From NCBI GenBank assembly GCA_029063085.1, contig JAIDOW010000048.1, positions 1 through 39,191 of the forward strand: a stretch of DNA of 39,191 nucleotides, read 5' to 3'. The stretch is from Lachnospiraceae bacterium. GTDB taxonomy: Bacteria > Bacillota > Clostridia > Lachnospirales > Lachnospiraceae. The translations under genes were made by a program, and so were the position numbers. The notes beneath the pieces were generated by a model. The model worked only from the letters and a program-made list of their open reading frames with translations. It was not told the origin of the DNA and did no database searches. This document shows positions 6,874-39,191 of the stretch, one piece after another (within the stretch, counting starts at the first letter, position 1; every line of letters begins with the position of its first letter).

Positions 6874-6933
6874 AAGACTTCCTCCTTCATAATTATCTGC
6901 CACACCTATATTAATATTTTATTTTTATATACC

Positions 6934-6999: not shown

Positions 7000-7040
7000 T
7001 GCCTGTTTTTGCAACTTTTCCTGAGATTGTTCTCGTTTTT

Positions 7041-7461
7041 CTATGGTTCATCATAAAGGCTATAGTCTGTTGTCAACCCGTTGTACCACCGGCTCATTCT
7101 CCACTCGCTGTTTTCATTATATAAAAGGTATTCCATTTCTTCCTCTGAACATTCATCACTTCTGGTCATTTCTTCACCATTTACTGTCAAAACTGTAACA
7201 AAATCATCCGAACTCCCTTCTTCGTATGCGCACAGTTCTCTATACAAAACATATGTATCATCCTGAAATTTAAATTCTGCCCAGCTATGGGAAGCAGCCG
7301 AATTGCGCCAGTAACTGAGTATCAATTTATTATTCCCATCAACCGAAGGATTTGGAATATCTGACCTCTGTCAGATCCGTTTCCTGTATTTTTACAGATG
7401 ACAAAAAATCTTCCTTGTCTTCAAAGCCGCAGCCACTTAATACAAATATACATATCAGCAT
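7041..7461 (-). pseudogene. Frameshifted small lipoprotein gene
   Basis: Two reading frames read as one protein. The first, from ATG at 7461, gives MLICIFVLSGCGFEDKEDF with a lipobox (LSGC) and runs to a TGA at 7339-7341. The second frame, open from about 7366 and ending at 7041, continues as RSDIPNPSVDGNNKLILSYW and ends in YSLYDEP. Joining them near 7360-7366 needs a one-base shift and gives about a 130-aa acidic lipoprotein. The signal peptide is also odd: it lacks basic residues, and an ATG with MKDRQ in another frame (7478) overlaps the nfo stop codon, hinting at a second one-base loss around 7462-7466. It follows nfo directly. No known family is recognised. It may be a real decayed gene or a sequence error. 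Confidence 0.65.
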
Positions 7462-11500: not shown

Positions 11501-13263
11501 TTGCAGACTGCATCTTTTATCATATAAGCACATCCATAACTATTGGATGAATCATCCACTTCCTGTAATGTTATGTTGACATTTCCCTCCACTTCTATGC
11601 TATGCACACCATACAATTTATCATATTCTCTTACACCTTTTATAGTAAGTGTATAATCACCAGCAACCTTTGGTCTTGAATTTGAAGACGTGCTATTATA
11701 ATTGAGCCCACTATAATAACCTCCCACCTCCGTAATGATTACATCCCCGCCAATTTCAGTTGGTCCATAATTAAACGGATATAAATATGTATAATTTTGA
11801 GCCATAGTATTTGCATTATATATGCTAAACTCAAAATTTCCGTTTACCGTCCCGCGACAGCCATAGATATACCCCCCGCCAGTAAACTCTACCGTTTCTC
11901 CGGTTGTTAATCTGAAATCTCCACCAACAGTTGCATCCTGCATCCCAGTCAGACTCTTGAAATTTCCCTCTTCAATAGAAACCGTCACATTTCCATTCAC
12001 GTTTGCATCTTCTTCAACACAATACAGCTGTTCCCAATGTCCGGTCATCTGAATTACGGTCAGATCCCCGCCAATCGTATAATTCTTTGAAGCTGCCTTT
12101 GATCTCACGATATGAGCTTGATTTGGCATACTACTATACTGACTTCCACACATCTGCACGGTTACATCCTTGTCTACAGAAGCATTTTCTAAAACATAGA
12201 ATTGATAAATACTGGCATTCTCCCCTAAAACAACAGACATATCCTCTGTAATTATTACATTATTCTGTGCTATAAAAACAGGACCTGATGACATATTATC
12301 TGCCATCACTGTTAAAGAACCATCAATAGTTATATTATTACGAACTGCATATAGAGCACTTACAGATAGACTGCCACTCACCTGTCGCCCTGAACCATCT
12401 ATATTAATATCTACCGCTCCCGTAATCTCAGTCGCTTCTGCATTTAAACCTGCATCGCCAGAAACGACATATAATTCTTTACTAACCGCTGCATCCTGCA
12501 GGATATCAACATCCAATGCTGTTTTAGCGTTAGATGCCATAGCCACATCACTGCATTGGTCTACATAACAACTGCTCACTGTTCCCCCCGTCATTTCAAG
12601 AGCAATTCCTGTATTTACATTTTCCCCCGCTATAACCGTACAATCTTGCACACCATAAAGAGCACTGATATTACCGTCCACCATACGAACAGCAATCGCT
12701 TTCTCTACTGTTCCTGATACCGTAACCGTACTTGACTTGGCAGCATAACATTCGCCGATGCTACCACAATCAATATCCATAAGGACTGCCGTCCCTTCAC
12801 TTGTCACCAGTTCCCCTTGATTTACACCAATAACCGTTCCGTAACCACTGCCCTCCAATGTTATCCTGATTGGTGTGGTGGATTTTGCCTGATAAATACC
12901 ATAGATCGGTATAGTGGCAGGAACATCGGAATTATCCGAACCTCCCATATACATATCCAAAACCACCTTCTCTTCTCCCTCATCTACAATTCCATTCTGG
13001 TTTTCATCGATATAAATATTGTGATATTTTACTGTCTCGCCTTCCCCTACCGGAACATCTTTAATAATAACAGAATTCCCGTTTAGATTAACAAACTGTG
13101 GCATTCCCTGTTCATTACATTCATAGGTAATACCATCCGCAAGATTCACCATCTCCAGTGTACTTTCTTCAGCATGTACAAAACCTGTCATTCCATGAAA
13201 TACATTTCCCGCTGTCATACATGCCAAAAGTCCAAATGCAGCCAATATCTTTCGTTTCCTCAT
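8536..13263 (-). CDS. Giant secreted protein: beta-solenoid-like N-half, 72-aa repeats, BspA-type LRR tail
   Basis: 1575 aa; signal peptide residues 1-31 (ends GFVHA). The N-terminal ~850 residues are rich in short repeats of the type VNGNVTVSIE / VGGDFRLTT / EVEGNVNITL, compatible with a right-handed beta-helix. Then come Ig-like segments (including PLYDMANIEI ... GLPTGLRLKNGKIYGTPA), three 72-aa repeats (HTYSDTWKTDADKHWKEC, CGEKAEEA, WDAGVV, TCTVC) and a C-terminal BspA/LRR_5 array (AFKNNKKLKKVVISSKILTI, GNAAFSGCKKLATVTMG, AFYNCIALKKIVIP, AFYGCKKL) ending in a Lys-rich tail. GGAGGAGG lies six bases before the ATG. It is likely surface-exposed or released, for adhesion or binding; no anchor motif or enzyme domain is recognised. 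Confidence 0.88.
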   Translation of the reverse strand: MRKRKILAAFGLLACMTAGNVFHGMTGFVHAEESTLEMVNLADGITYECNEQGMPQFVNLNGNSVIIKDVPVGEGETVKYHNIYIDENQNGIVDEGEEKVVLDMYMGGSDNSDVPATIPIYGIYQAKSTTPIRITLEGSGYGTVIGVNQGELVTSEGTAVLMDIDCGSIGECYAAKSSTVTVSGTVEKAIAVRMVDGNISALYGVQDCTVIAGENVNTGIALEMTGGTVSSCYVDQCSDVAMASNAKTALDVDILQDAAVSKELYVVSGDAGLNAEATEITGAVDINIDGSGRQVSGSLSVSALYAVRNNITIDGSLTVMADNMSSGPVFIAQNNVIITEDMSVVLGENASIYQFYVLENASVDKDVTVQMCGSQYSSMPNQAHIVRSKAASKNYTIGGDLTVIQMTGHWEQLYCVEEDANVNGNVTVSIEEGNFKSLTGMQDATVGGDFRLTTGETVEFTGGGYIYGCRGTVNGNFEFSIYNANTMAQNYTYLYPFNYGPTEIGGDVIITEVGGYYSGLNYNSTSSNSRPKVAGDYTLTIKGVREYDKLYGVHSIEVEGNVNITLQEVDDSSNSYGCAYMIKDAVCKQNVEITTKDNQFTSFEGVSNAEVTGNVTLQCSGDTASVSSGGYFYGLKMGKAEGSVTAEITDCQYKYFYGLYTVSEIGGTVAMHINGGNYISKIEPCYESNTKDNITLVVDGAVLGKDGNTINLTNPAAKDTYAVFDIKDTCTVNGNYYVENKPTVSPNKGGNMLAIGGDYYFTGSYPITENVAAGSIYLSNGAIMKIPEGITISVEDNGMIYAQDGTQFLIEGTLRGAVCQDNGYKVSSYYVNGGELDTPTDNISYLYYPITLDYLEEMGTVTAGGNVNGTSLCPELLFGRVGHPMSVTCKAKKGYESTSVEIKKLTGESLSDITEDETTAGKYSFTMPKEPVNINAAFAATQITLDKTELGLEAEFNIATTAESPLYDMANIEIINDAEEGTVSYEVDEEYGLPTGLRLKNGKIYGTPARVYEDGKTTIIHITGKNGTKADLTLNIVVQQGESELVKVEVPIDGLPVELAAEYGNILSEIELPYNKNGVWYLGGEEIENPTVSAEDLPDGAFVWEDADIVVDALEGEEAVYFVTYVPEDPDCYEIMPAQLQVSVKVIHIHRYGDTWKSDADKHWKECGCGEKAEEAAHTWDAGVVTQQPTATEAGERTLTCTVCEATKIVEEPATGENPHEHTYSDTWKTDADKHWKECECGEKAEEAAHIWDAGVVTKQPTATEAGERTLTCTVCGMKKVVSEPATGENPHEHTYLNTWKTDADKHWKECECGEKAEEAVHTWDAGVVIKQPTATEKGEKIITCTVCKKIKTEMIAALEGTTPGGNENSGGNTNIPAAGTILNDSVTKAKYKVTGTEEGSRTVMYMATTDKAAATVNIPAIVIIDNISYDVTAIADNAFKNNKKLKKVVISSKILTIGNAAFSGCKKLATVTMGANVTTIGKNAFYNCIALKKIVIPKTVVKIGSKAFYGCKKLLNITIKTTKLTTKNVGSKAFTKAGSSNYKKMVVKVPKSKLKAYKKTLKKRGVNSKAKIKK
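9205..9830 (-). repeat. Three tandem 216-bp repeats in the giant surface-protein gene
   Basis: The plus-strand 10-mer CAGTGCTTAT starts at 9341, 9557 and 9773, an exact 216-bp period, or 72 codons. Each unit has HWKEC-C-CGEKAEEA and TCTVC, with cysteine and histidine pairs that could bind a metal or form disulfides. Boundaries are approximate; the outermost copies diverge. Confidence 0.9.
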
Positions 13264-14489: not shown

Positions 14490-16784
14490 CTATTTATCCG
14501 TTGCCGCCATAAGATAAATAAGCGGTGAGTTCCAATAAATGGTTACCTCATTACATGAAAAGCTCTGTGCATTATCTACATAACATTTTGCAGCAGGAGT
14601 ATTTAAGAATACCGCCTTTGCATATGGGTCTTCCAGAGCGTTGTCCGGACCACCTACCAGCATACCCGGCATACATTTCTCCAACACCTGGGACGGTCTG
14701 TGATGCGGATTCTCCGGACACAGTGTACCGCTTCCGGTAATAAAACAATATCCTGTTGCATTGATACCCATCAGATAATTCAAATGTGCCTTTGCGTATG
14801 TCATATATTCTTCATTAGGCTTAATGTCATTTGCGAGACAAAGCAGCATTCCGCTGTTTGCAATAGACATATTGGAACCCCATTCATAACTCTTTGCCCT
14901 GTCAACCTGATATTCATTTTCTTTACTTTTCTTCAGGCTTTCCTCTACAATCTCAAAAAAGATTGTTTGGATATCTTTTCGTAAATTACTGCTGTCAGTA
15001 AGCAGAATATCTGTCGTCAATGCCGCATATGCACCAAATACTCCTACATCTGCCCATCCAAGCCCCTGAAGATTCTTTTTATCCCCAACCAGTTCTGCCA
15101 TCGCTTCTTTATAAGATGCATCTTCTGTAGCCTTATAAAGTTCAGCAGCAGCCCAGAAATATTCATCTTCATCTTTGCTGTCAGGATATTCACCGGTTAC
15201 AATTTCTTCTGGGTTTTTATATCCCTTTTCTTCCTTATGTCCTTCCAGATAAGACCATGCCTTCTTTGCTGCTTCCAGACAGGTATTTGCATAGGCAGAG
15301 TCCACATCTTTATAAATGCGGGATGCCATTGCCATTACTGCCGCAAAATCTCCTGTTGCCGTATTGGAAATCGGACTTACAATCAATTCATCCGTCTCAT
15401 CCTGCGGCATGACCGTTTCTGGAAATACTGCACAGGTAACCTTATGATAAACTCCACCACTGGCACTATCCTGCATCTTCAACATCCAGTCCAATTCATA
15501 TTTTACCTCATCCAAAGCGTCACTGATTCCGTTTCCGCTTTCTGGTATCCCCATATCATCAGAAAATGCTTCCGGGTTCTTCTCATATGCCAGTAAAATA
15601 TCCGCAACAGCCTTTGCTCCCGAAACAACATATCTTCCGTAATCTCCCGCATCATGCCAGCCGCCGCTTACATCTATTTTATTATTTGTTCCATAAATCA
15701 CTGCCTGGGTGTCATGGCATACCGGATGTGCATAATCTCCCGCCAGTTCACTTGACAGTTCCATTCCACAGCGCTGTAAATATAACATCTTTACAACATT
15801 AGAAAAAGTCTCATCATATATATTCTCACCAATGGTAAATGGGAAGGATTCTTCTCCCTTTCCGCTTACTACTTTATAAGTCCCTTCATCCTTTAACTCG
15901 GAAAAATCACCTATATTATTCCATTCATCCGCTACTACATTTAAATCCCTCTCGGAAAGCTCACCTTCAAAAACAGTCTCATTGGTATCTGCATTTACCA
16001 CAGTAAATGTAGTATCGTCTTTATCCAAATCAGCAAAAATAGCAACCTTCTTGTCATCCTTTTTATAACCCAGCTGATTTACCTTTGCCTTTGGTACATA
16101 TACCGGGTCCGGATCCTTAATCATGTTGGTATCATCCACCACGGTTAAAGAAAGATTATCCAGCATAATGGAATGCTCACCTACACTGTCCGCATCAATT
16201 CCTGCATCCTCCATGGAATGCACAAGTCCCATATTAAAACATAGCCTTGGTGCCGGATCCGTCTCTTCCTCCATTGTAAACTGCCCTGACACATGCTGTA
16301 CCTCGTCCGTAACTTTTACCGTATCCATAATATACGCATGATAATCACCGCCATTTACCTGAATTCTCCAGTCTACATCACGCTCCAATGTTCCATATAT
16401 GTCAAAAGAAAACTCATAAACACCGCCCTGGCGGATTGCAAAACCGTCGTAATATATCTGTACACCATGTTCTACCTTTCCAATCTTGGCAATGTCGATC
16501 TGAAGCTCCTCTTTGTCATTCACAGCCATTGTCATCTGACCACCGTTGGTATAATTTGAAAAACTGCCAATCCCATTAGAGAAATCACCATTCCGAATCA
16601 TATTTCCCTGTCCGTAAGGAACACTTTCTTCCGTTGTTTCCTCCGTATCCTCTTTCTCACTTTCCGTACTCTGCTTTTCTACAGTTTCTGTAGTCTCTTC
16701 CTGCTTTTTGTCATTGCAGCCAACCAGACTAAAAACCATTGTTGCCGCAAGCAGTAATGCTGCCGCCTTTTTAAACTTTCGCAT
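14490..16784 (-). CDS. Glycoside hydrolase family 9 lipoprotein with CBM and CelD-type Ig domain
   Basis: Endoglucanase/cellodextrinase-type enzyme, probably anchored outside the membrane as a lipoprotein (lipobox LVGC, Cys23). 764 aa: Glu/Thr-rich linker (24-57), CBM4/9-like beta-sandwich (about 60-215, starting [14 protein letters not shown]), CelD N-terminal Ig domain (about 234-318, [17 protein letters not shown]), GH9 (alpha/alpha)6 barrel (about 325-762). Active-site markers are intact: [13 protein letters not shown] (D378, D381), PENPHHRPS (H694 region) and [10 protein letters not shown] (proton donor E746). AGGAG before 16784 lies inside the end of deoC, overlapping it by 14 bp, so the two are probably translationally coupled. 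Cell anchoring suggests trimming of oligosaccharides at the surface. Substrate could be cellulose, mixed-linkage glucan or xyloglucan. Confidence 0.93.
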
Positions 16785-27323: not shown

Positions 27324-28502
27324 CTACTGAACATTTATATGATATACTTCTAATTCGCTCTTTACCTGAGACCTTAAATCAGGATTTTGTTTTAACATCT
27401 CTTGGATATCTTTAAGTCCGGATAGCCTTAATTCATCATTATATGCTATCTGCTCTCTTAATTTCTGCCTTCTCACATTAAGAGAATGCTTTACCTCCAC
27501 CATTTCCCTATCATCAATAAGCGCCAACGACTGTTTAGACCAGATATCAGGATCTTTAATTCCATGCGCAAATAATAATTTAGACAGTGCTTCCGAAAAT
27601 TCCCGTAAATCCCCTGTTGTCTTTTGGTATTTTCTCACTTCATCTACCATAATCAGATACTGATCATGCAGATATTCCAGTTCGCGAAGACTCTTAATAT
27701 TATACTTGCTGTAAAGATAGTCAAGAGTTGACGTATTATTAACACATTTAATCTTAACCTTATTCATCAAATTAATGGCACGGTTTTCTTTCGCTTCAGA
27801 CATCTTGAATTCATAAGACAACTTCCGATAGGTTATAACAGTAAGAGCAGCCATGCCCGCTATCACTAATAATATCAAAAGAATCAACACCATCAAATTG
27901 GTATCTGTCAGAATTGCAACAACTGCCAATATCAAAACCAAAACAGTTGAAGCACTGCCAAACCCCATCAGAAACATCCGAAGCTTTGCCTGTCTCTCTT
28001 CTATGGATTCCTGTAAATATTCCTGAGTATTTTTCTCTGCTTCCAAGTTCTTCAGATCACGCTTAATCTTAAGATCCATATCTTCCAAATCTTTCAGCTG
28101 TTTAAAAATATCTGTCAGATCTTTTTCCATTCCCTGAATCATCCTGAAATTTTCATCACTGATCCGGTCATCTGAATGCAGAAATTCTGAAGTTTCATTC
28201 TCTAATAAAGCAATCTTTTTTGCTATATCGGTTATTTCTTTTCTGACATCTTGGGGCAGTTCCTCAATTGTCTGAATATCCGTGAAATAAGATGTTACCA
28301 TCTCATATTCCACCCGCAAATCCTCCATCTGATAAGTTGCATCTACAATCTGGTCACATTTAAAAGCAACCTCATTCTCCGGTGTCCTGTTTTCTTTCTC
28401 TGTCTCCCCTGACAGGAAGCTGTCAATGCTCTCATATTCAAACGACTCCTCGGTAATCTCTGTTTTTGTAAAAATATTCTTTACTGTATTTAGTAAACCC
28501 AT
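27324..28502 (-). CDS. Two-TM coiled-coil protein of the DUF5716/DUF5717 operon
   Basis: 392 aa, not a named family that I know. An acidic, disordered N-terminus (15-45), helical coiled-coil segments (45-175), two adjacent membrane segments (about 182-198 and 203-225, forming a hairpin), then a second helical cytoplasmic region (225-392) with MVEVKHSLNVRRQKLREQI near the end. Both ends are therefore on the same side, presumably the cytoplasm. The ribosome-binding site GGGAG lies nine bases before the ATG. Last gene of the operon, 39 bp after the TPR-like gene. It could anchor the other, soluble products to the membrane (inference). Confidence 0.85.
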   Translation of the reverse strand: MGLLNTVKNIFTKTEITEESFEYESIDSFLSGETEKENRTPENEVAFKCDQIVDATYQMEDLRVEYEMVTSYFTDIQTIEELPQDVRKEITDIAKKIALLENETSEFLHSDDRISDENFRMIQGMEKDLTDIFKQLKDLEDMDLKIKRDLKNLEAEKNTQEYLQESIEERQAKLRMFLMGFGSASTVLVLILAVVAILTDTNLMVLILLILLVIAGMAALTVITYRKLSYEFKMSEAKENRAINLMNKVKIKCVNNTSTLDYLYSKYNIKSLRELEYLHDQYLIMVDEVRKYQKTTGDLREFSEALSKLLFAHGIKDPDIWSKQSLALIDDREMVEVKHSLNVRRQKLREQIAYNDELRLSGLKDIQEMLKQNPDLRSQVKSELEVYHINVQ

Positions 28503-28541
28503 TCTATTCTGCTCCCTGCTAACCTTTTTTCTCTTTCTTTA

Positions 28542-29375
28542 TCAACCAGTCTGTGCACGAAAATCTGTTTTCAGACGTTCAATCACTATATCCATTCTCT
28601 TATTAAAATCTGTCAGGTTATTCTTCTCATAATGGAACATTGCTTTTTCCATGCTATGATAAATTGGCGATCCTGTTACATCTGCTTCTGCATCCTGAAT
28701 AGCACCATAAATCGGTTCTACCATTTCTTCCACATCATAGTGCTTCGCAAGCACTTCAATATCAGAACGCTCCTTCATAGTCGCCATTATCAGAAGATAC
28801 TCATAAATAGAACTGTTGTTTTTTGTATATCCGTATGCTTTGAGATAAGACTCTGCTGCATCCTTTAACTCAAAGTTATTTGCTAAAGCAACTGCCCGGT
28901 TATGATAAATTGCACCTAACAGCTTATCATTCTGCAAATCCGGATACTGTTCTAATATTTCATCATAAATAGCTGCTGCTTTCAGATATTTGCGGTAACG
29001 CAAAAAACCATCTGCCTGAAGCTTGCGATACTGGGGCGGTGTCAGCCCTTTCATTCGTTCAATCTGCAAAATAAATCCTTTTATCTCCGGAATCGTATAA
29101 TATTCCTTGAATGTAAGAATCGTTGTCAGAAGATCCGTTAAATCCGTCGTATCCTTCTGCTTTATCTCTCTAAGCTTTTGTGCAAGTTCCGGCAGTTTTA
29201 ATTCAGTCTCAATCCAGTGAAATATCGTTACCCCAATATGTTCCTCCGAAATCAGGGCTATATTATTGTAAACATAAAAGCAAAGTTCTTCATAAGAAAA
29301 TACCTCTATCTTTGTATTTGGAAATATATATGAAGTTTTCGCCGGTATTGTTTCGCATAATATTACTCTGCCCAT
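28542..29375 (-). CDS. TPR-like protein of the DUF5716/DUF5717 operon
   Basis: 277 aa, soluble. An N-terminal alpha/beta part (MGRVILCETIPAKTSYIFPN, YEELCFYVYNN) is followed by helical repeats that look like TPRs: ADGFLRYRKYLKAAAIYDEI, LGAIYHNRAVALANNFELK and DAAESYLKAYGYTKNNSSIY, with the typical small/large residue spacing. An acidic C-terminal region follows. GAGG lies seven bases before the ATG. It lies between the second repeat element and the coiled-coil gene. TPRs usually mediate protein contacts, so a scaffold role with the Hsp70-like neighbour is plausible. Confidence 0.83.
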   Translation of the reverse strand: MGRVILCETIPAKTSYIFPNTKIEVFSYEELCFYVYNNIALISEEHIGVTIFHWIETELKLPELAQKLREIKQKDTTDLTDLLTTILTFKEYYTIPEIKGFILQIERMKGLTPPQYRKLQADGFLRYRKYLKAAAIYDEILEQYPDLQNDKLLGAIYHNRAVALANNFELKDAAESYLKAYGYTKNNSSIYEYLLIMATMKERSDIEVLAKHYDVEEMVEPIYGAIQDAEADVTGSPIYHSMEKAMFHYEKNNLTDFNKRMDIVIERLKTDFRAQTG

Positions 29376-29399
29376 TTTACTACCTCGCTCATTTAATAT

Positions 29400-29586
29400 A
29401 GAAGGAGTCTTGCACCTCGATTTCGCTTCGCTTCATCAGTTTTGCATACCTTCGAACTAGGATCACTTCGTTCCCCAAGGTCTCTGGCATCGGTCAACGG
29501 CTTCGCCGTATATGAATAAATCTAAATACAGCTTTACGTAAGCAAGCTCCCGACAGCTGTATTTAAATTTATTCATGCAAGGCTCA
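29400..29586 (-). repeat. Structured intergenic repeat element, copy 2
   Basis: Same blocks as copy 1 but shorter: CTTGCACCTCGATTTCGCTT, CATCAG, TTGCATACCTTCGAA, CACTTCGTTCCCCAAGGTCT, then CGGTCAACGGCTTCGCCGTA and the hairpin, ending TGCAAGGCTCATT at the stop codon of the DUF5716-like gene. It lacks the extra ~60-bp units. It lies inside the operon, between the DUF5716-like and TPR-like genes. Confidence 0.85.
29513..29575 (-). terminator. Hairpin of repeat element copy 2
   Basis: Arms 29513-29533 and 29555-29575 pair over 21 positions; the only C-A mismatch on the plus strand becomes G-U in the minus-strand RNA. The loop keeps GTAAGCAAGCTCCC. Compared with copy 1, five positions in the left arm differ and four have matching changes in the right arm. 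It lies 11 bp after the DUF5716-like stop and would sit inside the operon mRNA. Terminator, processing or attenuation roles are all possible. Confidence 0.55.
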
Positions 29587-30843
29587 TTACCCAATTGAAA
29601 ATTCTTTGCGGTATATTTTGTTTGTGGTAGGATATATTTTTCCAAATCCTACATCACGGATTACGATCGCCCCTAATTTTTCGTCGTATAATTCTACTTC
29701 AAGGGATATCTTTGTTGTCTTTGGCGGACGTTTTGGCAAACCATGAATTTCTATAATTTCTTTTTGCACTTCCTTTGTCACTTTATCCCTATAGACCATA
29801 TCTATCCGGTTCGTATCATCCAGGATCAGCGTAACTTTTCCTCGCATATTATACCATTCTCTGCCGCCAATAGCTATTGGATAAAATTGATTTCTACCCT
29901 CCATATCGCCAATACTGACACCTATATCAAACGGTATACTTCCCTCTGTACACAGAATACAGTCTTTGTCTGCTTCATAGGCTCCCAGCTTTGCATGGTA
30001 ACAGGCTCCTTTGGTATAAATATTTTGCCCCATAAAAACCCTTCTTCCATCACAAAGAACCTTTGTAGACTCCTCAATCCATTTATCATTAAAACCCGGC
30101 CCCGTCAAATATACGGTAGAAATATAAGTTTCCTTCATTTTTTTCCTTGCTATTTCCGTAAAATGCCTGTCCAGTTTTTCCACATCTTCAAACAACATGG
30201 CATAAGTCACATCCGCCTTCATATCCTGATGACCTAAATAAAAAATTTTGGCATTCCCCTGATGTTTCTTATCTATTCTGTAGTATTCCATTCCCTCAGT
30301 TCCATATTCAAACATTGCTACACTGTTAGTGCGCAGTCTTTCATCCTGATTCATCACATACTGAAAAAATGCATTTTCATGGCTCATGATATAAAAGGAA
30401 TCCTTAGAAAGTTCCAGTTCATCCTTTAACTTTCCAACAACATCATAAATTTTAGGATGATATGTTTCCAATGTAACAGTAAGTCCGCATAATTGATATT
30501 CCTCAGAACGTTCCAGAAACTCTTCTATAAGAGTTTTAAGAAGAATCAATAATAAAACATCGTAAGTATAAGCACCACCCTCAACAACCACGTGTTCAGA
30601 AGAGTCAATATTTCCGACAATATCCTCCACCATAACGCCCTCTTTTTGAAAACGGATGGCACTGACATTATTCCCCGCATACCACTTTTTTTCTTCTTTG
30701 GTATAAAACATAACATTCGGAAGCTGATAGGTCTCTGTATTATTCATCTGATAAATGGATTCCGGTTCCTGCTTATCTTCCCTGAAATAACTCATCTGTA
30801 TATTTTTCTTACATAAATCAAGACCTAAATATATCTCCTTCAT
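29587..30843 (-). CDS. DUF5716-like protein with degenerate Hsp70/actin (ASKHA) fold
   Basis: 418 aa; I match it from memory to DUF5716. The ASKHA landmarks are in order: phosphate-1 YLGLDLCKKNIQMSYF (5-20), LPNVMFYTKEEKKWYAGNNV (41-60, like the Hsp70 start), connect-1 IMSHENAFFQYVM (152-164), phosphate-2 VAMFEYGTEGMEYY (175-188), adenosine motif VYLTGPGF (244-251) and connect-2 TKGACYHAKLGA (277-288). The usual T-T-N and D-G-G-T residues are replaced, so ATP hydrolysis is doubtful. A C-terminal beta domain (330-418) may be a binding part. AGAGGAG lies before the ATG. Second gene of the operon, after the DUF5717-like gene. Cytoplasmic, no signal. Confidence 0.82.
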   Translation of the reverse strand: MKEIYLGLDLCKKNIQMSYFREDKQEPESIYQMNNTETYQLPNVMFYTKEEKKWYAGNNVSAIRFQKEGVMVEDIVGNIDSSEHVVVEGGAYTYDVLLLILLKTLIEEFLERSEEYQLCGLTVTLETYHPKIYDVVGKLKDELELSKDSFYIMSHENAFFQYVMNQDERLRTNSVAMFEYGTEGMEYYRIDKKHQGNAKIFYLGHQDMKADVTYAMLFEDVEKLDRHFTEIARKKMKETYISTVYLTGPGFNDKWIEESTKVLCDGRRVFMGQNIYTKGACYHAKLGAYEADKDCILCTEGSIPFDIGVSIGDMEGRNQFYPIAIGGREWYNMRGKVTLILDDTNRIDMVYRDKVTKEVQKEIIEIHGLPKRPPKTTKISLEVELYDEKLGAIVIRDVGFGKIYPTTNKIYRKEFSIG

Positions 30844-30992
30844 ATGGTACTCCTCTTATACTTGTAACCAATTTTGTAAAACAAAATTGATTGCCTGCTT
30901 GCCCGCCATCACGGAGTGATCTTTAATGCGGGCAATTCCCGTTTCGTAAATTCTCATAATCCACTTTACACTACTTGTTTGTAACTAATCTC
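30844..30992 (-). repeat. Structured spacer with GGTTACAA repeats between operon genes 1 and 2
   Basis: 149 bp between stop and start. It has GCCCGC (30901-30906)/GCGGGC (30928-30933) enclosing ATCAC-GGA-GTGAT (30908-30920), and the inverted repeat CAATTTTGT-AAA-ACAAAATTG (from about 30869). Plus-strand TTGTAACC (30862-30869) and TTGTAACT near 30980 mark both ends. TTGCCTGCTT matches the repeat before exoA. No U run follows the stems, so it is probably not a terminator. Confidence 0.6.
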
Positions 30993-33900
30993 CTACTCCA
31001 ATAATTCCAGATTTTCTTCTATAACTGCTGCCAGCTTTAAGTATTTATCAATCTTATTTATCAACATTTGATTCTCGCCAATCTCCTGATTCAGCAGCAT
31101 GGCATTTAACATCTCAAAACGGTTCTCATACTCCTCCGTTTCGCCTTTTGCTTTCATGCCCTCACTCTCGTATACCCGGGTATTGCCTGCATTTTCTTCT
31201 GCCATTTCATAAAGTAAATTTTCACCATGAAATAATACAAATTCTTTCATGTAATATCCGGGCAGTACTTCCATCATTCTTGCTTCCCTGTTACATTCCG
31301 GCTTTTCCACACCAAACTGAATACCATACCGAAAGGAAATCTGTCTGCCCGCCTTATCTCTAGTCACCACATAAGTCATTAAAAACAAATCCTTTGGAAG
31401 CTTTAAATATTTTTTAAAATTCCTGAAAAACGGCAGTAAGATTCCGCGTTTTATAAAATACTCCACCTGCTTTTTGAGCCACGCAATTTCCTGTCCCTCC
31501 AGTTTGGCTTTTCGGCTCAGGAACAAAAGCATGGCAGCACGGCACATATCATCCGATAATTCACCTGTTTCCATCTGCTGCAAAAGGTCGTCAAAAAAAG
31601 TTCCGGGAAACTCCTCTTCTTCTATCAGATAGGCAAAAGAAGCCCGTTTAAAAAATGCTTTTATGACCATTCCCCGCCGTTTTTTCCGCATATAAGACTC
31701 AAACACCATAAAAATATCACTATGCCACTGCTCCGTATATAACAATTCACAAATGATATTTTCTTCTAACAAATCCAGCCTCGCTAACCGTCTGTGTGCA
31801 CGTTTCCAAAGACGCAGCATATCCTTCAATCCACTTTGATAATAATCTGCCAGATAGCTTAAGACTTCCGGCGTATCCTGTCCCATCCTGTATAAATGGA
31901 CAGCAACCGAAATCAGGCTGTCTTCTTTGGCATACTGGGAAAACTCCTTCACTGCTTCTACAAGCTTTATGAGATGCTCTGCCAAAACTCCCTGATGACC
32001 AAAACGTTTTATTGCCTCATATGCTTTATCATAAAGACCACAGGTAATCAGATCGTCAATAAATTCCACACCATTTTGAGGTGAAACATAATCCATATCT
32101 ATCCGATCCAGATAACTCCTTAAAATATCCATATCCAGATGTTCATGATAATACCGGACAATCCCATACATAGCCTGTTGCTTTGTCTCTTTGCTGATCT
32201 CCCGAAATGCCAGTATATCCCTTGCTATATTTACTTCTCTTGCATTCGTTGCATCGTATGCGCCCAAAACATCATACTGATACAAAACATAACGAAAATC
32301 ATCTCCTGCATATTGTGCCAGAATATCTATATATTCGGACTCATCCACCAGCTTCTGCAATTTATAAGGAATGGTACTGATAAAACGATTCTGGTCTTTA
32401 TCCACCAGAGAAATAACTGCTGACTCTGTGATCATATCTACATAGGCAGCATGGTTTACCACCGGAATCACCGTCTCTTCTTCCAGTTCCTTATGGGATA
32501 CTACAACAGCTGAAATATTATCATTGACTACGGTTAATTTTCGTTTAAATATAACATTGACGATACTTGCTGCAAAATGAGGGGTTACTGCCTGTGGCTT
32601 TAAAAACTCACTGTATATAACCGAAAGATCATCGCTCATATTGCCTTTTACTATCTGACCTTCCATAAATGCAGCCATATTTGGTAGATATTCTTCATAC
32701 TGCCCCAGATACTGGCGTTTATTCGAGATAACATTCGCATATAAATATGCAAATTCACTATCAGTCAGAAAACTTTTATAATTAAAATATCTAAGGACGG
32801 ATTCAGGAATCAGGTCATAATGGCTTTTATCCATACTCCGCAGATAATTTTCCTGTATTCCCACGATCTTATATCCACACCGTATTCCCTCCAAATAATA
32901 TGAGTGGTAACGGTGCTCCAATCTGCCTCCTTTAATCAGCAGACCACATATAATTCTGATTATATCCGGTTTCTTTTCAATATCATAAATCATTGCAAGC
33001 AAAGAAAAGACCTGTGGAGAAAAATCCTTTTCTCTTGATGCCAGCTGCAAAAATTCTGCTTCTGCTTCTTTACTTAAACAATGATTCTTCAGCCCGAATC
33101 TTATTGCCGCAAGTTCCAGCGGTGATAACTTTTTAAGCAGCAACGGTTCCTGATTGATCAAATCACAAATCTCAAGAGCAAGAACCGGACTCGCATATCC
33201 TCCCATAAACAGACCTTCAATCTGGGAAAACAGCCATTGTTTGTCCTTTTGATATCTCTCATCCAAATAAATCAAAAGCCAAAAATAAAACAGCTTATCC
33301 TTTTCCTTTGCCAATGCTCTCTCTATCTCCTCACAGGCATTTACAATCTGCCTTGCATCCTTCGAAAGAAGTGCCTTCAAATAGAGATAGTAGCAATGTT
33401 CTCTTGGTCCTTCCATTGCCTTATCCATATCAGCTTCCATACGGCGGATTTCCTGTCTTACATTCTCTTCCTTCCCCCCAAGAATCCCCATATGCAAAAG
33501 CCCCAGCTTATATATTCCCACATCAGGTTCAAAGCCGATCAGATTTTGAAGGGCTACCTTTGTCTTATCGATAAATGCTGAAAGCGGAAGCATTCCAATC
33601 CGGTAATCCAGATAATTATGAATCAGTGCCGTTATCTCCAGCTTCTTTAATTTCGCTTCGGACTTATGCTGCACTAAAACCCTTGGCTCCAGTTCAGGCT
33701 TTTTTATCATCACATTTACTACTATTTTCTGATATGTATTTTCTAAAATAATATGCCCGGCAGCAGATTCCTTTTCATCCAGCATCTCCGGGTCCAAAGT
33801 GTAACTTAAAGTACAGTTATTTTCTGCAAAATCCATACTACAGATTTCTGATTGATGTACAGTAATGAATTTGGCATCCGTATACACCTTCATGCTGCAA

Positions 33901-34565
33901 TAGCCCCATGTATTCTTACGAAGTACCAACTGATGTTCTTCCCTCATTTTAGGAAAATTAAATTGAAAACGGTCATGCTCCACTTGTAAAGCAAGTGCCC
34001 GCTTTTTATGTACATACACCAAAAATTCCTCTAATGCCTGATTCTTATTCAGCGAATCTCTCAGACTTCTATATGCCGCCAGATAATCCTCATGATTCCC
34101 CAGCAGTGTATGTGCAAATTCATCTGAATAAAATACCTGTAATGCTTTATTCCAGTCAGCCTCTGCAAGTGCGGAAAACTTCATCAGATCTTCTAATGCC
34201 ACACCGTTCACATCAATAAATGGTGCCACAATTTCTATATTGTAGGGAATTTCCTTTTCCATTCCGTTACCTATCACATGGATAGCACCTTCAAAAACAC
34301 TGCCTCTTTTTTTACTGGTTCCATCAAAAGAAAATGCGATTTCGCCCTTGCGCCCAATCAGGCTATGGTCATTCAGGCTCAACAAATAAGCATCGTCATA
34401 CACCATCATTTTCATCGGAATGTCGTTTTCAGAAACAACTGTAATGGTTCCTGTATAGACGCTGCCTGCCTCTATTTTTAGTTGTAAGTAGCTTTTTGAA
34501 AGCTTAATCTTCGGGTACTCTATATAAAAGTCCCCTTTTGCATACTGTTCAACTTTACTCTTCAT
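30993..34565 (-). CDS. DUF5717-like giant protein with N-terminal Ig-like domains and alpha-solenoid
   Basis: 1190 aa, matched from memory to DUF5717; function unknown. No signal peptide or membrane segment, so probably cytoplasmic. Two beta-sandwich modules at the N-terminus (about 15-110: FYIEYPKIKLSKSYLQLKIE ... RGSVFEGAIHVIG; and about 205-300: LVLRKNTWGYCSMKVYTDAK ... VVNVMIKKPE). The long middle (310-1000) is helical and repetitive, like a TPR/HEAT solenoid. A beta-rich segment (1040-1110, FRYGIQFGVEKPE, VLFHGENLLYEM) and a helical end follow. The start codon follows a weak GAGAAACTT, with an overlapping divergent promoter region upstream. First gene of the operon. A large scaffold working with the Hsp70-like and TPR proteins is the simplest idea. 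Confidence 0.85.
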   Translation of the reverse strand: MKSKVEQYAKGDFYIEYPKIKLSKSYLQLKIEAGSVYTGTITVVSENDIPMKMMVYDDAYLLSLNDHSLIGRKGEIAFSFDGTSKKRGSVFEGAIHVIGNGMEKEIPYNIEIVAPFIDVNGVALEDLMKFSALAEADWNKALQVFYSDEFAHTLLGNHEDYLAAYRSLRDSLNKNQALEEFLVYVHKKRALALQVEHDRFQFNFPKMREEHQLVLRKNTWGYCSMKVYTDAKFITVHQSEICSMDFAENNCTLSYTLDPEMLDEKESAAGHIILENTYQKIVVNVMIKKPELEPRVLVQHKSEAKLKKLEITALIHNYLDYRIGMLPLSAFIDKTKVALQNLIGFEPDVGIYKLGLLHMGILGGKEENVRQEIRRMEADMDKAMEGPREHCYYLYLKALLSKDARQIVNACEEIERALAKEKDKLFYFWLLIYLDERYQKDKQWLFSQIEGLFMGGYASPVLALEICDLINQEPLLLKKLSPLELAAIRFGLKNHCLSKEAEAEFLQLASREKDFSPQVFSLLAMIYDIEKKPDIIRIICGLLIKGGRLEHRYHSYYLEGIRCGYKIVGIQENYLRSMDKSHYDLIPESVLRYFNYKSFLTDSEFAYLYANVISNKRQYLGQYEEYLPNMAAFMEGQIVKGNMSDDLSVIYSEFLKPQAVTPHFAASIVNVIFKRKLTVVNDNISAVVVSHKELEEETVIPVVNHAAYVDMITESAVISLVDKDQNRFISTIPYKLQKLVDESEYIDILAQYAGDDFRYVLYQYDVLGAYDATNAREVNIARDILAFREISKETKQQAMYGIVRYYHEHLDMDILRSYLDRIDMDYVSPQNGVEFIDDLITCGLYDKAYEAIKRFGHQGVLAEHLIKLVEAVKEFSQYAKEDSLISVAVHLYRMGQDTPEVLSYLADYYQSGLKDMLRLWKRAHRRLARLDLLEENIICELLYTEQWHSDIFMVFESYMRKKRRGMVIKAFFKRASFAYLIEEEEFPGTFFDDLLQQMETGELSDDMCRAAMLLFLSRKAKLEGQEIAWLKKQVEYFIKRGILLPFFRNFKKYLKLPKDLFLMTYVVTRDKAGRQISFRYGIQFGVEKPECNREARMMEVLPGYYMKEFVLFHGENLLYEMAEENAGNTRVYESEGMKAKGETEEYENRFEMLNAMLLNQEIGENQMLINKIDKYLKLAAVIEENLELLE

Positions 34566-34692: not shown

Positions 34693-35784
34693 ATGGCTAT
34701 ATTACAGGATTCCTTTCACGGAAGTGACTTAGAAGTAATTGCAAAGCGCTATCATATGGAACAGGACTCCATTATTCCATATGGATCAAATGTAAATCCC
34801 CTTGGCATCTCCCCATTGGCAAGGCAGGCACTTTTAGATAATATTGATGCAATCAAAGCATATCCAGACAGAGACTACGTCTCTCTGAAAACTTCTATTT
34901 CCAATTATTGCGGGGCATCCCCAGATCATCTGATTCTTGGCAACGGCACTTCCAATTTAATCAGGCTTACTCTGGAAACCCTTTCTCCAAAAAGGACCCT
35001 GATCGTAGCTCCAACTTATTCGGAATACAGCAGGGCTGCAAAGCTGGTGGGCAGTGAGGTGGATACCTATATGCTCAAAAACCTTGATGATTTTGAGGTT
35101 GATATCGACATGTTTTTAAAAGCGTTAAATGAGTCCTATGAACTTCTGATCATCTGTAACCCAAATAATCCGACCAGCAAAGCCCTGACCAGAGAACAGA
35201 TGGACACTATTTTGGAACGCTGTCTTGAACTTGATATTTTTGTTATGGTGGATGAAACTTATGTAGAATTTGTAAAAGATATTCATCATATTTCTTCTGT
35301 CATTCTCGCAAAAAAATATGAGAACCTGATTATACTTCGCAGTGTTTCCAAATTCTTTGCCGCACCGGGAATCCGCCTCGGTTATGCAATTACAAGCAAC
35401 AAAGACTTTTTAGAAGCAACCTCCAATGGCAAAGTCCCATGGAATATCAATACTTATGCTTCCATCGCCGGTGTTATGTTTGAAGATGAACATTACATCA
35501 ATCTGACAAAAAGCTTAATCCAGACAGAGCGAAACCTGATTTATTCCGCACTGTCCAGCCGCAAGACCATTAAGGTATTCAAACCGGAAGCAAACTTTGT
35601 ACTAATCAAATTATTAAAAGAAGAACAGACTGCATCAGAGGTGTTTGATTATTGTATTGAAAGAGGTTTTATGATTCGCGACTGTACTGATTACGAAGGG
35701 CTGGGTGAAAAATATATACGTTTCTGCTTTATGAAACCCGAACAAAACGATAACATTGTAAATACGATCTTAGAAATTGTATAA
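34693..35784 (+). CDS. PLP-dependent class I/II aminotransferase (HisC/CobD-like)
   Basis: 363 aa, fold-type I PLP enzyme. Markers: YGSNVNPLG at the N-terminus (as in CobD/HisC), GNGTSNLI (83-90), CNPNNPTS (155-162), VDETYVEF (186-193, PLP Asp187), RSVSKFFAAPGIRLGYA with Schiff-base K220 and R228, and IRFCF near the end (carboxylate Arg). CobD (threonine-phosphate decarboxylase) and HisC (histidinol-phosphate aminotransferase) cannot be separated by eye; neither cob nor his genes are adjacent. AAGG lies eight bases before the ATG. Single gene, ended by the strong terminator at 35797-35844. Confidence 0.88.
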   Translation: MAILQDSFHGSDLEVIAKRYHMEQDSIIPYGSNVNPLGISPLARQALLDNIDAIKAYPDRDYVSLKTSISNYCGASPDHLILGNGTSNLIRLTLETLSPKRTLIVAPTYSEYSRAAKLVGSEVDTYMLKNLDDFEVDIDMFLKALNESYELLIICNPNNPTSKALTREQMDTILERCLELDIFVMVDETYVEFVKDIHHISSVILAKKYENLIILRSVSKFFAAPGIRLGYAITSNKDFLEATSNGKVPWNINTYASIAGVMFEDEHYINLTKSLIQTERNLIYSALSSRKTIKVFKPEANFVLIKLLKEEQTASEVFDYCIERGFMIRDCTDYEGLGEKYIRFCFMKPEQNDNIVNTILEIV

Positions 35785-37676: not shown

Positions 37677-39104
37677 TTACTCTATCAAGCTGGTTATTGA
37701 TATCAAATCATCATATTTAAGAGAGACATCTTTGCTGTCATCTACAAAAGTAACTGTATAACTCTTGGATAAATATCCCAATTTACTAAATGTAATTATA
37801 TGACTTCCCGTTACTTTTGTAAAGGATATCGGGGCAATTCCTAAATATTCACCGTCAAAATAGACACTGGCCCCAACCGGTGCTGAAATTGTAACTTTAT
37901 TGGAAGTCTTTGTTCCGGTTGTCGTTGAAACATCCTTCACATTATCATTTTCTGATGTACTGCTTTGCGTTGTCCCATCCTGAGTAGAATCTTCCGTACT
38001 TGTATTCTTTTCTGTAGTCTGATTCGAATTATTCTGTTTTCTTGTCGTACCGGAAGAGGATTGGCCTTCCGTAGTTCCATCCTCTGACTGCAAGGTATAT
38101 TCCTTAATCTTATATGCATAATTCACATTGAACGAAGCACTGTAACTCTGATAACCCTCTGCAATAATATTAATCTTGTGTTTTCCATATATGATATCCA
38201 CTGCGCCTTCCGTATTGACCCGTTTCCCGTCAATATAAACAGCAGCATCCGACGGTGTCACCTTAAATAAAACAGAACCTATCTGCTTCGGCTCTATGGC
38301 TATATCCGCTAATGACACATCTATTTCCTGATTTTTCAAGACCTCTACTGTCTTTGTCCCTACATCATTATCTTTTGCGATACGAAGTGTATACTCTCCT
38401 TCCCTTACAGTAAGCAGCATATCCTCCGTCACCGGAACGATCACATCATATCCAATCTCTACCATCCCTCCAATGTAAGACGCATAATCAGAAAGTCTCA
38501 CATATCCATGTCCCAGTTCCACATACATGGAACAGACCACATCATTACACAGCCAGATGGTAAGCTGATCCTCCGAACAGATTTCATTCAATCCAATTTC
38601 ATTATTATCGGAAAATGCACTGATATTATCATTCATACGATAGCTTGTCCCGTTAATCCTGACCGTTCTTTCCAGATTGTCAATCACAGCCCCTGAAATT
38701 CCCTCCATTTTGCGAATACTCCCATCCTCGCTCATATGCAGGGAGATCAGCTTATCCCGGTTTGCATCATATACCACATCTACAATACTTCCAAGCCCCA
38801 CTTGGGACATAGACAAAATATCACCATACTTATCCCTGACATCCGCCCCGCCATTAAAGGTAAGTGTAATCTCCGTCTCATAATTAACTGCCCGGAGCGT
38901 AATTTTTTCATTTACGTCATCCAGATTGCAGATAATGGCAAACATAGATACCTCTTCGGCCGGTATCACCTCATCATCATAGGAAGGAACTGTAATTTCC
39001 TTTCCACATCCGGTCATAACAAAGCCCAGACACCAAAACAGCATAAGCATAGTGATACATTGTTTTATTATTTGATTGTTAAATCTTTTCATTTGTCTTT
39101 TCAT
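37677..39104 (-). CDS. PEGA-domain surface lipoprotein
   Basis: About 475 aa. The signal peptide ends in a lipobox MTGC (Cys33). An extracellular beta-rich N-terminal half (35-280) follows, and PEGA domains come next: VLFKVTPSDAAVYIDGKRV near the middle and, after a Ser/Thr/Gln/Asn-rich linker (about 340-395), VTISAPVGASVYFDGEYLGI at the C-terminus. PEGA modules are typical of surface layers in Gram-positive bacteria. The frame opens at 39116 with TTG, but GGAG (39111-39114) fits the ATG at 39104. Function unknown, perhaps binding of wall polymers. It may share a transcript with phosphoglucomutase. The promoter region is cut by the window end. Confidence 0.87.
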   Translation of the reverse strand: MKRQMKRFNNQIIKQCITMLMLFWCLGFVMTGCGKEITVPSYDDEVIPAEEVSMFAIICNLDDVNEKITLRAVNYETEITLTFNGGADVRDKYGDILSMSQVGLGSIVDVVYDANRDKLISLHMSEDGSIRKMEGISGAVIDNLERTVRINGTSYRMNDNISAFSDNNEIGLNEICSEDQLTIWLCNDVVCSMYVELGHGYVRLSDYASYIGGMVEIGYDVIVPVTEDMLLTVREGEYTLRIAKDNDVGTKTVEVLKNQEIDVSLADIAIEPKQIGSVLFKVTPSDAAVYIDGKRVNTEGAVDIIYGKHKINIIAEGYQSYSASFNVNYAYKIKEYTLQSEDGTTEGQSSSGTTRKQNNSNQTTEKNTSTEDSTQDGTTQSSTSENDNVKDVSTTTGTKTSNKVTISAPVGASVYFDGEYLGIAPISFTKVTGSHIITFSKLGYLSKSYTVTFVDDSKDVSLKYDDLISITSLIE

Positions 39105-39191
39105 TATTTTCTCCAATATTAAATCTTATCTTTATCCAAAACAATCTTATTAAATACACGGTAAAACCTGTCTATGTGCATACAAAAAATA

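Follow-up and report, generated by a model that had tools for sequence, protein, structure and literature searches.

The four-gene unit

The window analysed here, a 39,191-nucleotide stretch of a Lachnospiraceae genome, carries a unit of four genes next to a divergent aminotransferase gene that serves as a flank marker:

34693..35784, plus strand: divergent aminotransferase (PF00155), outside the system
30993..34565, minus strand: Nig-DUF5717, putative scaffold, 1190 aa, first gene of the unit
29587..30843, minus strand: pseudo-Hsp70 (DUF5716), 418 aa (PF18980, E 1.9e-92)
28542..29375, minus strand: TPR adaptor, 277 aa (TPR_2 matched by 21 of 35 orthologues)
27324..28502, minus strand: membrane coiled-coil protein (ccTM), 392 aa (homology to the ccTM of a larger operon)

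As a preliminary description of this DNA had noted, all four open reading frames lie on the minus strand with no other genes between them; the longest opposite-strand reading frame in 27324..34565 spans 164 aa (among those of at least 90 aa). In transcription order the intergenic gaps are 149, 211 and 39 bases, and the three terminator-like sites on the minus strand all fall within genes, none of them intergenic. A promoter scan is uninformative because it returned 26 sites where 26.6 are expected.

The four-gene arrangement is more than chance. Among 92 Lachnospiraceae-type loci, window included, the DUF5717 gene adjoins the pseudo-Hsp70 gene upstream in 89 of the 91 testable, the TPR gene adjoins it downstream in 90 of 90, and a membrane gene comes next in 64 of 79. 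The preliminary description had staked its proposal of a system on such conserved co-occurrence, and the loci bear it out.

A putative scaffold of sandwiches and a solenoid

In a Pfam search the 1190-aa protein matched PF18984 (E 1.7e-250) and PF18983 (E 1.1e-60), both DUF5717, and the 418-aa protein matched PF18980, DUF5716_C; these are the family numbers that the preliminary description had proposed. The bit scores for the window unit (309.9, 833.9 and 205.8) exceed the curated cut-offs (34.7, 25 and 25) and place the proteins in DUF5716 and DUF5717. The Pfam descriptions returned for these families state neither a function nor kinship with Hsp70. The AlphaFold model of Nig-DUF5717 (pLDDT 86.0, pTM 0.60) predicts the following parts, all on the minus strand:

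34224..34511, minus strand: first PapD/ASH/MSP-type beta-sandwich, residues 19-114 (AlphaFold model)
33696..33998, minus strand: second beta-sandwich, residues 190-290 (AlphaFold model)
31416..33659, minus strand: long helical solenoid with a beta insert, residues 303-1050 (model secondary structure)
31152..31376, minus strand: C-terminal beta domain, residues 1064-1138 (model; inside the PF18983 match)

The predicted model agrees with the earlier idea of an Ig-and-solenoid scaffold, with two PapD/ASH-type sandwiches followed by about 750 mostly helical residues. The matches listed by the fold search span mainly the two sandwiches and barely cover the solenoid and the C-terminal domain, and the DUF5717 profile found no match among PDB sequences. 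The solenoid region corresponds to the ~900-aa DUF5717 core gene of the larger operon described below.

An Hsp70 with an eroded nucleotide site

The second protein had been read as a degenerate chaperone core, and its predicted model has a full-length Hsp70 fold rather than one unrelated to the actin/Hsp70 superfamily: a homologous ASKHA nucleotide-binding domain (NBD) and the beta part of the substrate-binding domain (SBD-beta) are both present. Alignment with the intact Hsp70 HspB extends over 411 columns (hhalign E 7.5e-26). The closest folds include, among the matches listed, Ssz1 and Hsp110; MreB, FtsA and actin do not appear among the best 50 matches listed per fold search of the 418-aa model, which leaves room for distant kinship. 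A closer relationship to MreB than to Hsp70 was considered and rejected, since hhalign gives alignment A4 a probability of 0.3% against one MreB-like protein and 78% against DnaK, both from the same genome. Alignment A4 holds 74 of the 81 available rows (from a pool of the window, 79 orthologues and locus L060); alignment A5 holds 50 of 70. The regions of interest are:

30802..30831, minus strand: degenerate phosphate-1 motif (GLDLCKKN, compared with GIDLGTTN in the same genome's DnaK)
30292..30312, minus strand: degenerate phosphate-2 motif (FEYGTEG, compared with YDLGGGT in the same DnaK)
30124..30258, minus strand: subdomain IIB deletion site (from phosphate-2 to adenosine motif spacing)
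30091..30108, minus strand: adenosine motif remnant LTGPGF, first Gly invariant across the 92 Lachnospiraceae copies
30001..30063, minus strand: most conserved stretch, consensus LCxGRRVFxGxNxxSKGAC, about where DnaK has NPDECVAIGA
29590..29943, minus strand: SBD-beta-like domain, residues 301-418, without a helical lid (full-length fold alignments reach the Hsp70 SBD)

Lys70, Glu171 and Thr199 are catalytic residues of Hsp70, and the protein departs from Hsp70 at all three. At the positions of DnaK T11, K70, E171, D194 and T199 the window copy reads K, V, H, E and G, in keeping with the degenerate ASKHA motifs described earlier; the catalytic trio is thus V/H/G. Across the 92 Lachnospiraceae copies Lys70 and Glu171 are never kept, Thr199 is kept in 2, and the equivalents of Asp194 and Asp8 are kept in 67 and 84, respectively. 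Because these two aspartates persist in so many copies, the pseudo-Hsp70 may still bind nucleotide.

Subdomain IIB is where GrpE grips Hsp70, and here too the protein departs from the family. About 70 residues of IIB are missing from the Lachnospiraceae pseudo-Hsp70: the phosphate-2 to adenosine spacing is 57 residues in the window copy but 119-170 in catalytically intact Hsp70s, and all 92 Lachnospiraceae copies retain just 48-98 IIB residues, whereas the DnaK of the same genome has 131 and all 28 pseudo-Hsp70s of the larger operon have 120-140. The helical lid (SBD-alpha) is absent as well; the chain stops after the SBD-beta strands, and most DnaK lid columns are empty. Conservation peaks at residues 261-280 (mean 0.82, the top 20-residue block), and 12 columns are invariant in the 74-sequence alignment.

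The putative TPR adaptor and the membrane protein

That the 277-aa gene is TPR-like stands for the family, in which TPR_2 reaches E <=0.05 in 21 of 35 orthologues (best E 6.7e-9), but not for the window copy, which reaches no TPR model. The protein aligns with the TPR protein of the larger operon over 164 columns of the N-terminal half (E 3.3e-17). A Death-like domain match in the window copy (bDLD3, E 0.0048) was set aside as chance, being found in only one of the 35 orthologues.

The ccTM protein aligns with its counterpart in the larger operon over 321 columns (E 1.1e-25) and has one hydropathy feature:

27819..27983, minus strand: hydrophobic stretch, residues 174-228 (hydropathy)

This single 55-residue stretch is long enough for two helices, as the two transmembrane segments proposed earlier would require, and probably forms a two-helix hairpin. 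Membrane attachment is not general, because ccTM is undetected in 15 of 79 testable reduced loci and found in only 6 of 28 full-operon loci; the proposed membrane component is supported as a membrane coiled coil but is not obligate.

A larger Hsp70/GrpE operon in sister families

In sister families the corresponding locus is an operon of eight to nine genes in the order Nig, DUF5717, HspA, coiled-coil GrpE, pseudo-Hsp70, HspB, Hsp70-VWA, TPR and ccTM. It encodes three Hsp70s with intact catalytic residues, one of them fused to VWA, and a GrpE domain carried on a long coiled-coil protein. Our full-operon set comprises 28 loci from 10 families, and every gene from DUF5717 to TPR is present in 21 of them; the other seven are incomplete in the stretch examined, and several of them, from families f5 and f19, seem to be broken up or scattered and not simply truncated. 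Hsp70-VWA orthologues occur in 13 families. Lys70, Glu171, Asp194 and Thr199 are kept in 22 of 22 HspA, 27 of 27 HspB and 23 of 24 HspV sequences, the 24th having a gap. Among the operon's own pseudo-Hsp70s (n = 28), Lys70 and Thr199 are kept in none, Glu171 in 5 and Asp194 in 27. In other words, the catalytic Lys and Thr of the pseudo-Hsp70 are gone already in the full operon. The preliminary description had called the system likely undescribed; we too found no published account, but it missed the larger operon, of which the unit is a reduced remnant.

The derivation of the four-gene unit, at the corresponding chromosomal site, from this eight- to nine-gene Hsp70 operon is well supported by gene content, gene order and phylogeny. 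Both forms have four homologous, orthologous genes in identical order at the same locus, with shared flanks in part of the loci only. Among loci with at least 600 bases upstream, a divergent aminotransferase precedes the unit in 29 of the 82 reduced and in 4 of the 8 full-operon ones; valS is found downstream of 14 of 71 reduced and 4 of 15 full-operon loci. Only a minority of reduced loci share these flanks. In a tree rooted on HspB, the Lachnospiraceae pseudo-Hsp70s nest among the full-operon copies, as sister to L044 (100/99), a bridging locus from a MAG with split genes; the full-operon copies form a group of their own in 0% of 200 bootstrap trees. The careful tree holds 17 of 92 Lachnospiraceae pseudo-Hsp70s, 18 of 28 full-operon ones and 8 of 27 HspB, and a quick tree holds 13 of the 92, its long branches flagged as unsure. 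The missing genes were sought elsewhere in the family. Hsp70-VWA has no orthologue in any of the 15 Lachnospiraceae genomes of the order sample, compared with 59 of 131 others that have one; a search of 100 Lachnospiraceae genomes found no orthologue of HspB (the top hit has 183 bits and 31% identity), no coiled-coil GrpE (the top hit, at 37 bits, covers the GrpE domain alone) and no HspA at E 1e-50, an empty result that carries little weight by itself and is read against the 671-801 bits that HspA orthologues score. On the line to Lachnospiraceae, three catalytically intact Hsp70s and the coiled-coil GrpE were lost, and the pseudo-Hsp70 eroded further, shedding most of subdomain IIB.

Distribution and constraint

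DUF5717 is kept in 147 of 150 sampled Lachnospiraceae genera. In one pair of genomes, with dS saturated, dN/dS is ~0.05 for DUF5717 and pseudo-Hsp70 and 0.11 for TPR. Of 146 genomes sampled from the order, 71 have neither the reduced nor the full form, which makes the function dispensable outside the carriers. No plasmid match was found for the unit, and 37 pattern matches in viral contigs included no relative by tblastn. Five records labelled 'Bacteriophage sp.' do match; the two examined are faecal scaffolds of unverified status that contain the bacterial operon, in one case next to valS, and a phage origin was rejected on these grounds.

Proposed role and alternatives

What does a chaperone operon do once its motors are gone? 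The frame is strongly conserved, so the unit is probably useful without its motor. Its most likely role, as we infer from sequence and predicted structure and hold with somewhat better than even confidence, is that of a nucleotide-independent, non-catalytic holding or assembly scaffold derived from a reduced Hsp70 operon. Synteny and the Nig-DUF5717 fusion suggest a physical complex. DUF5717, with its Ig sandwiches and solenoid, would be the scaffold and the pseudo-Hsp70 its docking part, whose lidless SBD-beta domain may still hold peptide segments; the TPR protein would bridge partners or clients, and ccTM, where present, would tether the complex to the membrane. Such a complex would hold or assemble one constitutive, family-wide client with no folding cycle, in the way that Ssz1 binds chains but leaves ATP unhydrolysed. 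A more specific history, to which we give slightly less than even chances, is that a multi-Hsp70 machine became an ATP-free structural complex once, at the Lachnospiraceae root; that most of IIB was deleted alongside the loss of the operon's own exchange factor; that the LCxGRRVFxGxNxxSKGAC stretch is a new surface, conserved at part of the former nucleotide site; and that the complex is now core and serves one dedicated client.

The pseudo-Hsp70 could instead work within an active cycle, assisting the ordinary DnaK as co-chaperone or in exchange, in the manner of Ssz1 or Hsp110, with the scaffold recruiting DnaK to clients. The genome has DnaK, making an engine available, and Ssz1 and Hsp110 are among the closest folds in the matches listed; Ssz1 is itself lidless, binds ATP without hydrolysing it and needs no classical exchange factor, according to the available text (PMC7083937). 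We nonetheless regard this reading as unlikely: a single J-domain query of reading frames of at least 80 aa from the loci examined returned only the genome's own DnaJ (L052), most of subdomain IIB, the route of exchange-factor action, is absent, and the top conserved stretch sits at part of the DnaK nucleotide site.

A chaperone-type system for conflict or phage defence is, in our view, a quite improbable reading of the unit. Theme two of GAP1-N2 does join HSP70, GrpE, a second truncated HSP70 and FNIII-TPR proteins, in the available text of PMC7159879, and CoCoNuTs have degenerate Hsp70, HEAT and Ig parts, in that of PMC11090510. In PADLOC, three operon Hsp70s hit the candidate PDC-M61B (E 4e-8 to 1.7e-5) and there is a weak LeoBC hit for the membrane gene (E 7e-4), but these matches look generic, spanning the Hsp70-type region or the coiled coil. 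Against defence, neither the window unit nor one full operon (L047) has a Pfam match to a GTPase, nuclease or effector domain, and 147 of 150 genera carry the unit; the plasmid, viral-contig and 'phage'-record results above also count against it.

That the four-gene form is ancestral, with Hsp70 and GrpE genes inserted later in other families, is more improbable still; it has the appeal of a smaller, simpler starting point but demands two separate order-preserving insertions and a regained IIB, and the HspB-rooted tree nests the four-gene copies inside. Finally, a functionless, decaying relic would fit the loss of most genes and catalytic residues but is scarcely credible given DUF5717 in 147 of 150 genera, the low dN/dS of that one pair, 12 invariant columns across 74 sequences and intact gene order in nearly all testable loci.

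Significance and relation to known systems

The holding or assembly scaffold that we favour would be of interest beyond this locus. The unit occurs in 147 of 150 sampled genera of Lachnospiraceae, a family common in the gut, and our literature search, degenerate-Hsp70 terms included, found no published role for it. As far as that search reaches, the larger operon is an unreported bacterial Hsp70 machine, equipped with a GrpE of its own, a VWA-fused Hsp70 and a built-in dead Hsp70. The two forms offer a natural experiment in which one scaffold exists with and without an ATP engine, making testable both the role of the pseudo-Hsp70 and the reason it outlasts active Hsp70s. The ancestry proposed here also supplies an origin for two Pfam families of unknown function, DUF5716 and DUF5717.

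Among known systems, Hsp110 (Sse1) serves as an exchange factor and has its NBD complete, whereas the pseudo-Hsp70 lacks most of IIB. The full operon resembles DnaK-GrpE in having catalytically intact Hsp70s and a GrpE domain but differs in its VWA-bearing Hsp70, in carrying GrpE on a long protein and in having no J-domain gene that we could find in the loci examined. In the ribosome-associated complex RAC (Ssz1-Zuo1), Ssz1 binds ATP, has a J-domain partner and is located at the ribosome, according to the available text (PMC7083937); here no J-domain gene was found in the loci examined and most of IIB is gone. CoCoNuT CnuD, as described in the available portion of PMC11090510, has a comparable degenerate Hsp70-like NBD and SBD with HEAT-like parts, and CoCoNuT systems also feature Ig-like domains; Pfam matches of the window unit and the L047 operon include no McrB-type GTPase, McrC or nuclease domain. 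The same matches include no TRAFAC GTPase or GAP1, and the likeness to GAP1-N2 lies in its neighbourhood of HSP70, GrpE, a second truncated HSP70 and FNIII/TPR proteins (Kaur et al. 2020, available text of PMC7159879). Unlike GAP1-N2, the unit described here is near-universal in its family, Lachnospiraceae, and its gene order is fixed.

The four-gene unit of the window

The unit consists of four minus-strand ORFs with no competing gene, in keeping with the preliminary description of four co-directional genes without others between them; the longest opposite-strand ORF across the span encodes 164 aa. The genes and their upstream neighbor are as follows.

34693 to 35784, divergent: aminotransferase, upstream of the unit
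30993 to 34565, minus strand: DUF5717 gene (Pfam, two DUF5717 models)
29587 to 30843, minus strand: pseudo-Hsp70 gene (Pfam, DUF5716_C)
28542 to 29375, minus strand: TPR gene, third of the unit (ORF call)
27324 to 28502, minus strand: gene for the membrane coiled-coil protein ccTM, fourth of the unit (ORF call)

Pfam returned both names behind the earlier labels, DUF5717-like and DUF5716-like; the third and fourth genes have no Pfam match above the curated cut-off, and none of the four matched NCBIfam above a cut-off. The proteins are under constraint: in one pair, with dS saturated, dN/dS is ∼0.05 for DUF5717 and the pseudo-Hsp70 and 0.11 for TPR, and the membrane gene yielded no value. In DUF5717, residues 19–290 include two sandwiches similar to the ASH/PapD-like domains found in chains of the ciliary central apparatus (7sqc, 7n6g); 7sqc also contains a chain, 7sqc_Z0, that matches the pseudo-Hsp70, possibly by coincidence. 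Elsewhere, the window encodes a protein of 1575 aa (8536–13263) that has BspA-type leucine-rich repeats toward the C-terminus and weakly matches the adhesin HupY, a GH9 cellulase (14490–16784) bearing CBM_4_9 and, at its N-terminus, an Ig-like domain, and a protein of 479 aa (37677–39116) that matches a PEGA domain.

A core element of Lachnospiraceae

DUF5717 belongs to the core of the family, its model matching 147 of 150 Lachnospiraceae genomes (one per genus) and 124 of the 126 of good quality. The same model matches 5/398 genomes of a phylum sample, every one Lachnospiraceae, and 11/291 of a class sample, of which 10 are Lachnospiraceae and the eleventh, at 21 bits, is below cut-off. Relatives of the pseudo-Hsp70 number at least 556 among GTDB contigs, and the best 80 of these were used; their record titles mostly name Lachnospiraceae or what we take to be its genera (Anaerosporobacter, Lachnotalea, Eisenbergiella, Herbinix, Acetatifactor, Roseburia, Pseudobutyrivibrio, Coprococcus and others), and some give only Clostridiales, Clostridia, Eubacteriales, Eubacterium or Bacillota. 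Two loci titled Gastranaerophilales (L105) and Oscillospiraceae (L096) bear the Lachnospiraceae-type operon and are possibly mis-binned or mis-titled.

Co-occurrence, the check that the preliminary description had proposed, bore out the unit across 92 Lachnospiraceae-type loci (the window, L032–L043 and L061–L139): DUF5717 lies directly upstream of the pseudo-Hsp70 in 89/91 testable loci, TPR directly downstream in 90/90, and ccTM was detected in 64/79. Beside the other three genes, ccTM went undetected in 15 loci (L034, L041, L043, L062, L069, L073, L078, L085, L090, L103, L109, L117, L123, L128 and L139), in several of which valS comes directly next. Two "Bacteriophage sp." records of human faecal origin, both unverified (L166, 4431–14019; L167, 3–5388), carry the bacterial operon, in one of them adjoining a valS that is itself in two ORFs, which suggests chromosomal scaffolds under a wrong label.

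A larger operon in sister families

Over 146 genomes of the order, the DUF5716 model matched 71. These are the full sample of 15 Lachnospiraceae plus 56 genomes outside the family, many of which have two neighboring matches in ORFs of ∼520 and ∼550 aa. The 28 full-operon loci that we read (8 + 20, spanning 10 families) have the order Nig, DUF5717, HspA, GrpE, pseudo-Hsp70, HspB, Hsp70-VWA, TPR, with ccTM next in 6/28 and valS beyond it in 4. Every gene from DUF5717 through TPR is present in 21/28; the incomplete loci (L140, L141, L144, L152, L153, L154, L156) are in some cases at the end of a contig or stretch and in others look interrupted or dispersed, and in two genomes of family f5 (G004, G109) Hsp70-VWA is on a separate contig. 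In one full operon (L047), four genes match HSP70 in Pfam, the pseudo-Hsp70 at E 4.3e-19 and the others at 6.1e-75, 2.7e-60 and 5e-95. The third Hsp70 also carries VWA, and GrpE lies in the long protein encoded after HspA and before the pseudo-Hsp70; TPRs and both halves of DUF5717 are recognized as well. GrpE recurs in 25/26 submitted orthologues of the long protein, and HSP70 with VWA in 24/24 Hsp70-VWA orthologues. Nig corresponds to the N-terminal part of DUF5717 (7/7 tested), and the two are fused in 82/86 Lachnospiraceae loci with a DUF5717 ORF >800 aa; the unfused loci are L043 and L076, L089 and L101, the last three of which start at a contig end. Since four of the 28 loci outside the family (L050, L148, L158, L159) are fused as well, the fusion is not unique to Lachnospiraceae.

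The engine, i.e. the operon's three Hsp70s with intact catalytic residues together with its coiled-coil GrpE, was not detected in the family genomes sampled. A query from the C-terminal part of Hsp70-VWA split the 146 genomes cleanly, with 59 (13 families) at 143–757 bits and the others at ≤69 bits; none of the 15 Lachnospiraceae is among the 59, and the maximum in the class sample is 59 bits. Hsp70-VWA and DUF5716 occur together in 55 genomes, Hsp70-VWA alone in 4, DUF5716 alone in 1 non-family genome, and neither in 71/146. Queries from L044, a bridging full-operon MAG, were run against 100 Lachnospiraceae genomes: HspA found nothing at E 1e-50, and the best match to HspB, at 183 bits and 31% identity, we take to be DnaK or similar. 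The coiled-coil GrpE profile gave seven matches in these genomes (≤37 bits, GrpE domain only, ORFs of 206–263 aa) that look like ordinary GrpE. Full-operon orthologues score 671–801 bits with the HspA model and 170–781 bits with the GrpE model; among Lachnospiraceae-locus ORFs, none matches the latter and the maximum for the former is 33 bits. The window's genome has DnaK and one more Hsp70, a 562-aa protein (L053, 1498–3186) that is presumably HscC-like; in the quick tree described below, neither joins the HspA, HspB or Hsp70-VWA group.

Direction of change

With 116 Hsp70-type sequences, a quick tree, flagged for long branches, placed HspA, HspB, Hsp70-VWA and the Lachnospiraceae pseudo-Hsp70 in one group each. 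A more careful tree, rooted on HspB and including 17 Lachnospiraceae pseudo-Hsp70 copies, shows a ladder from most full-operon copies through family f22 (L050, L158, L159) and L044 to all 17 Lachnospiraceae copies (100/99), and full-operon copies form one group in 0/200 bootstrap trees. The flanks are partly common: the divergent aminotransferase is found at 29/82 family versus 4/8 full-operon loci (with ≥600 bases upstream), and a co-oriented valS no more than 3.5 kb downstream at 14/71 versus 4/15. All four window genes have full-operon counterparts, and the two forms share ancestry. Taken together, the ladder, flanks and counterparts point to loss in place as the most likely origin of the four-gene form. 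In L044 (JAQSXR010000023.1, the same record as L060), Hsp70-VWA (5340–7384) and TPR (4205–5231) are each in two ORFs, which may be an assembly error or a first step of decay.

Erosion of the pseudo-Hsp70

Catalytic residues were read against DnaK of the window's genome, in what we take to be E. coli DnaK numbering (Lys70, Glu171, Asp194, Thr199, Asp8). The first four are retained in HspA (22/22), HspB (27/27) and Hsp70-VWA (23/24, one gap).

Residues retained in pseudo-Hsp70 copies
Full operon (n = 28): Lys70 0, Glu171 5, Thr199 0, Asp8 27, Asp194 27
Lachnospiraceae (n = 92): Lys70 0, Glu171 0, Thr199 2, Asp8 84, Asp194 67

With Lys70 and Thr199 absent from every full-operon copy, the pseudo-Hsp70 is degenerate already in the full operon. 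Spacing between the phosphate-2 and adenosine motifs is 119–170 residues in catalytically intact Hsp70s, 120–140 in 28/28 full-operon pseudo-Hsp70s, L044 included, and 48–98 (median 62; window 57) in 92/92 Lachnospiraceae copies. The family copies have lost most of subdomain IIB, the missing segment being its core. Conservation in the family peaks at residues 261–281 (LCxGRRVFxGxNxxSKGAC), about where DnaK has NPDECVAIGA. In E. coli, subdomain IIB residues 255–272 and 276–302 are described as GrpE contacts (PMC10825016). At this sample's resolution, the operon GrpE and the part on which it docks disappear on one branch.

Possible function and relation to known systems

We propose that the proteins of the four-gene unit form a complex, that the reduced unit would have no nucleotide cycle, and that its role may be client holding or assembly, with a link to the membrane wherever ccTM is present. 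The ORFs of the loci yielded no J-domain gene. In the literature searched, which covers few subscription papers and no preprints, we found no paper on DUF5717 and a single one on DUF5716, unrelated by its title; for an Hsp70/GrpE/VWA operon in Lachnospiraceae, the matches listed concern only other systems (e.g. PMC7159879, PMC11090510, PMC11019930). The parts are known already, and this literature yielded no description of the assembly or of its reduction. Ssz1, of the eukaryotic ribosome-associated complex, is the best functional model: it is lidless, does not hydrolyze ATP, requires no classical exchange factor and yet binds chains weakly (PMC7083937).
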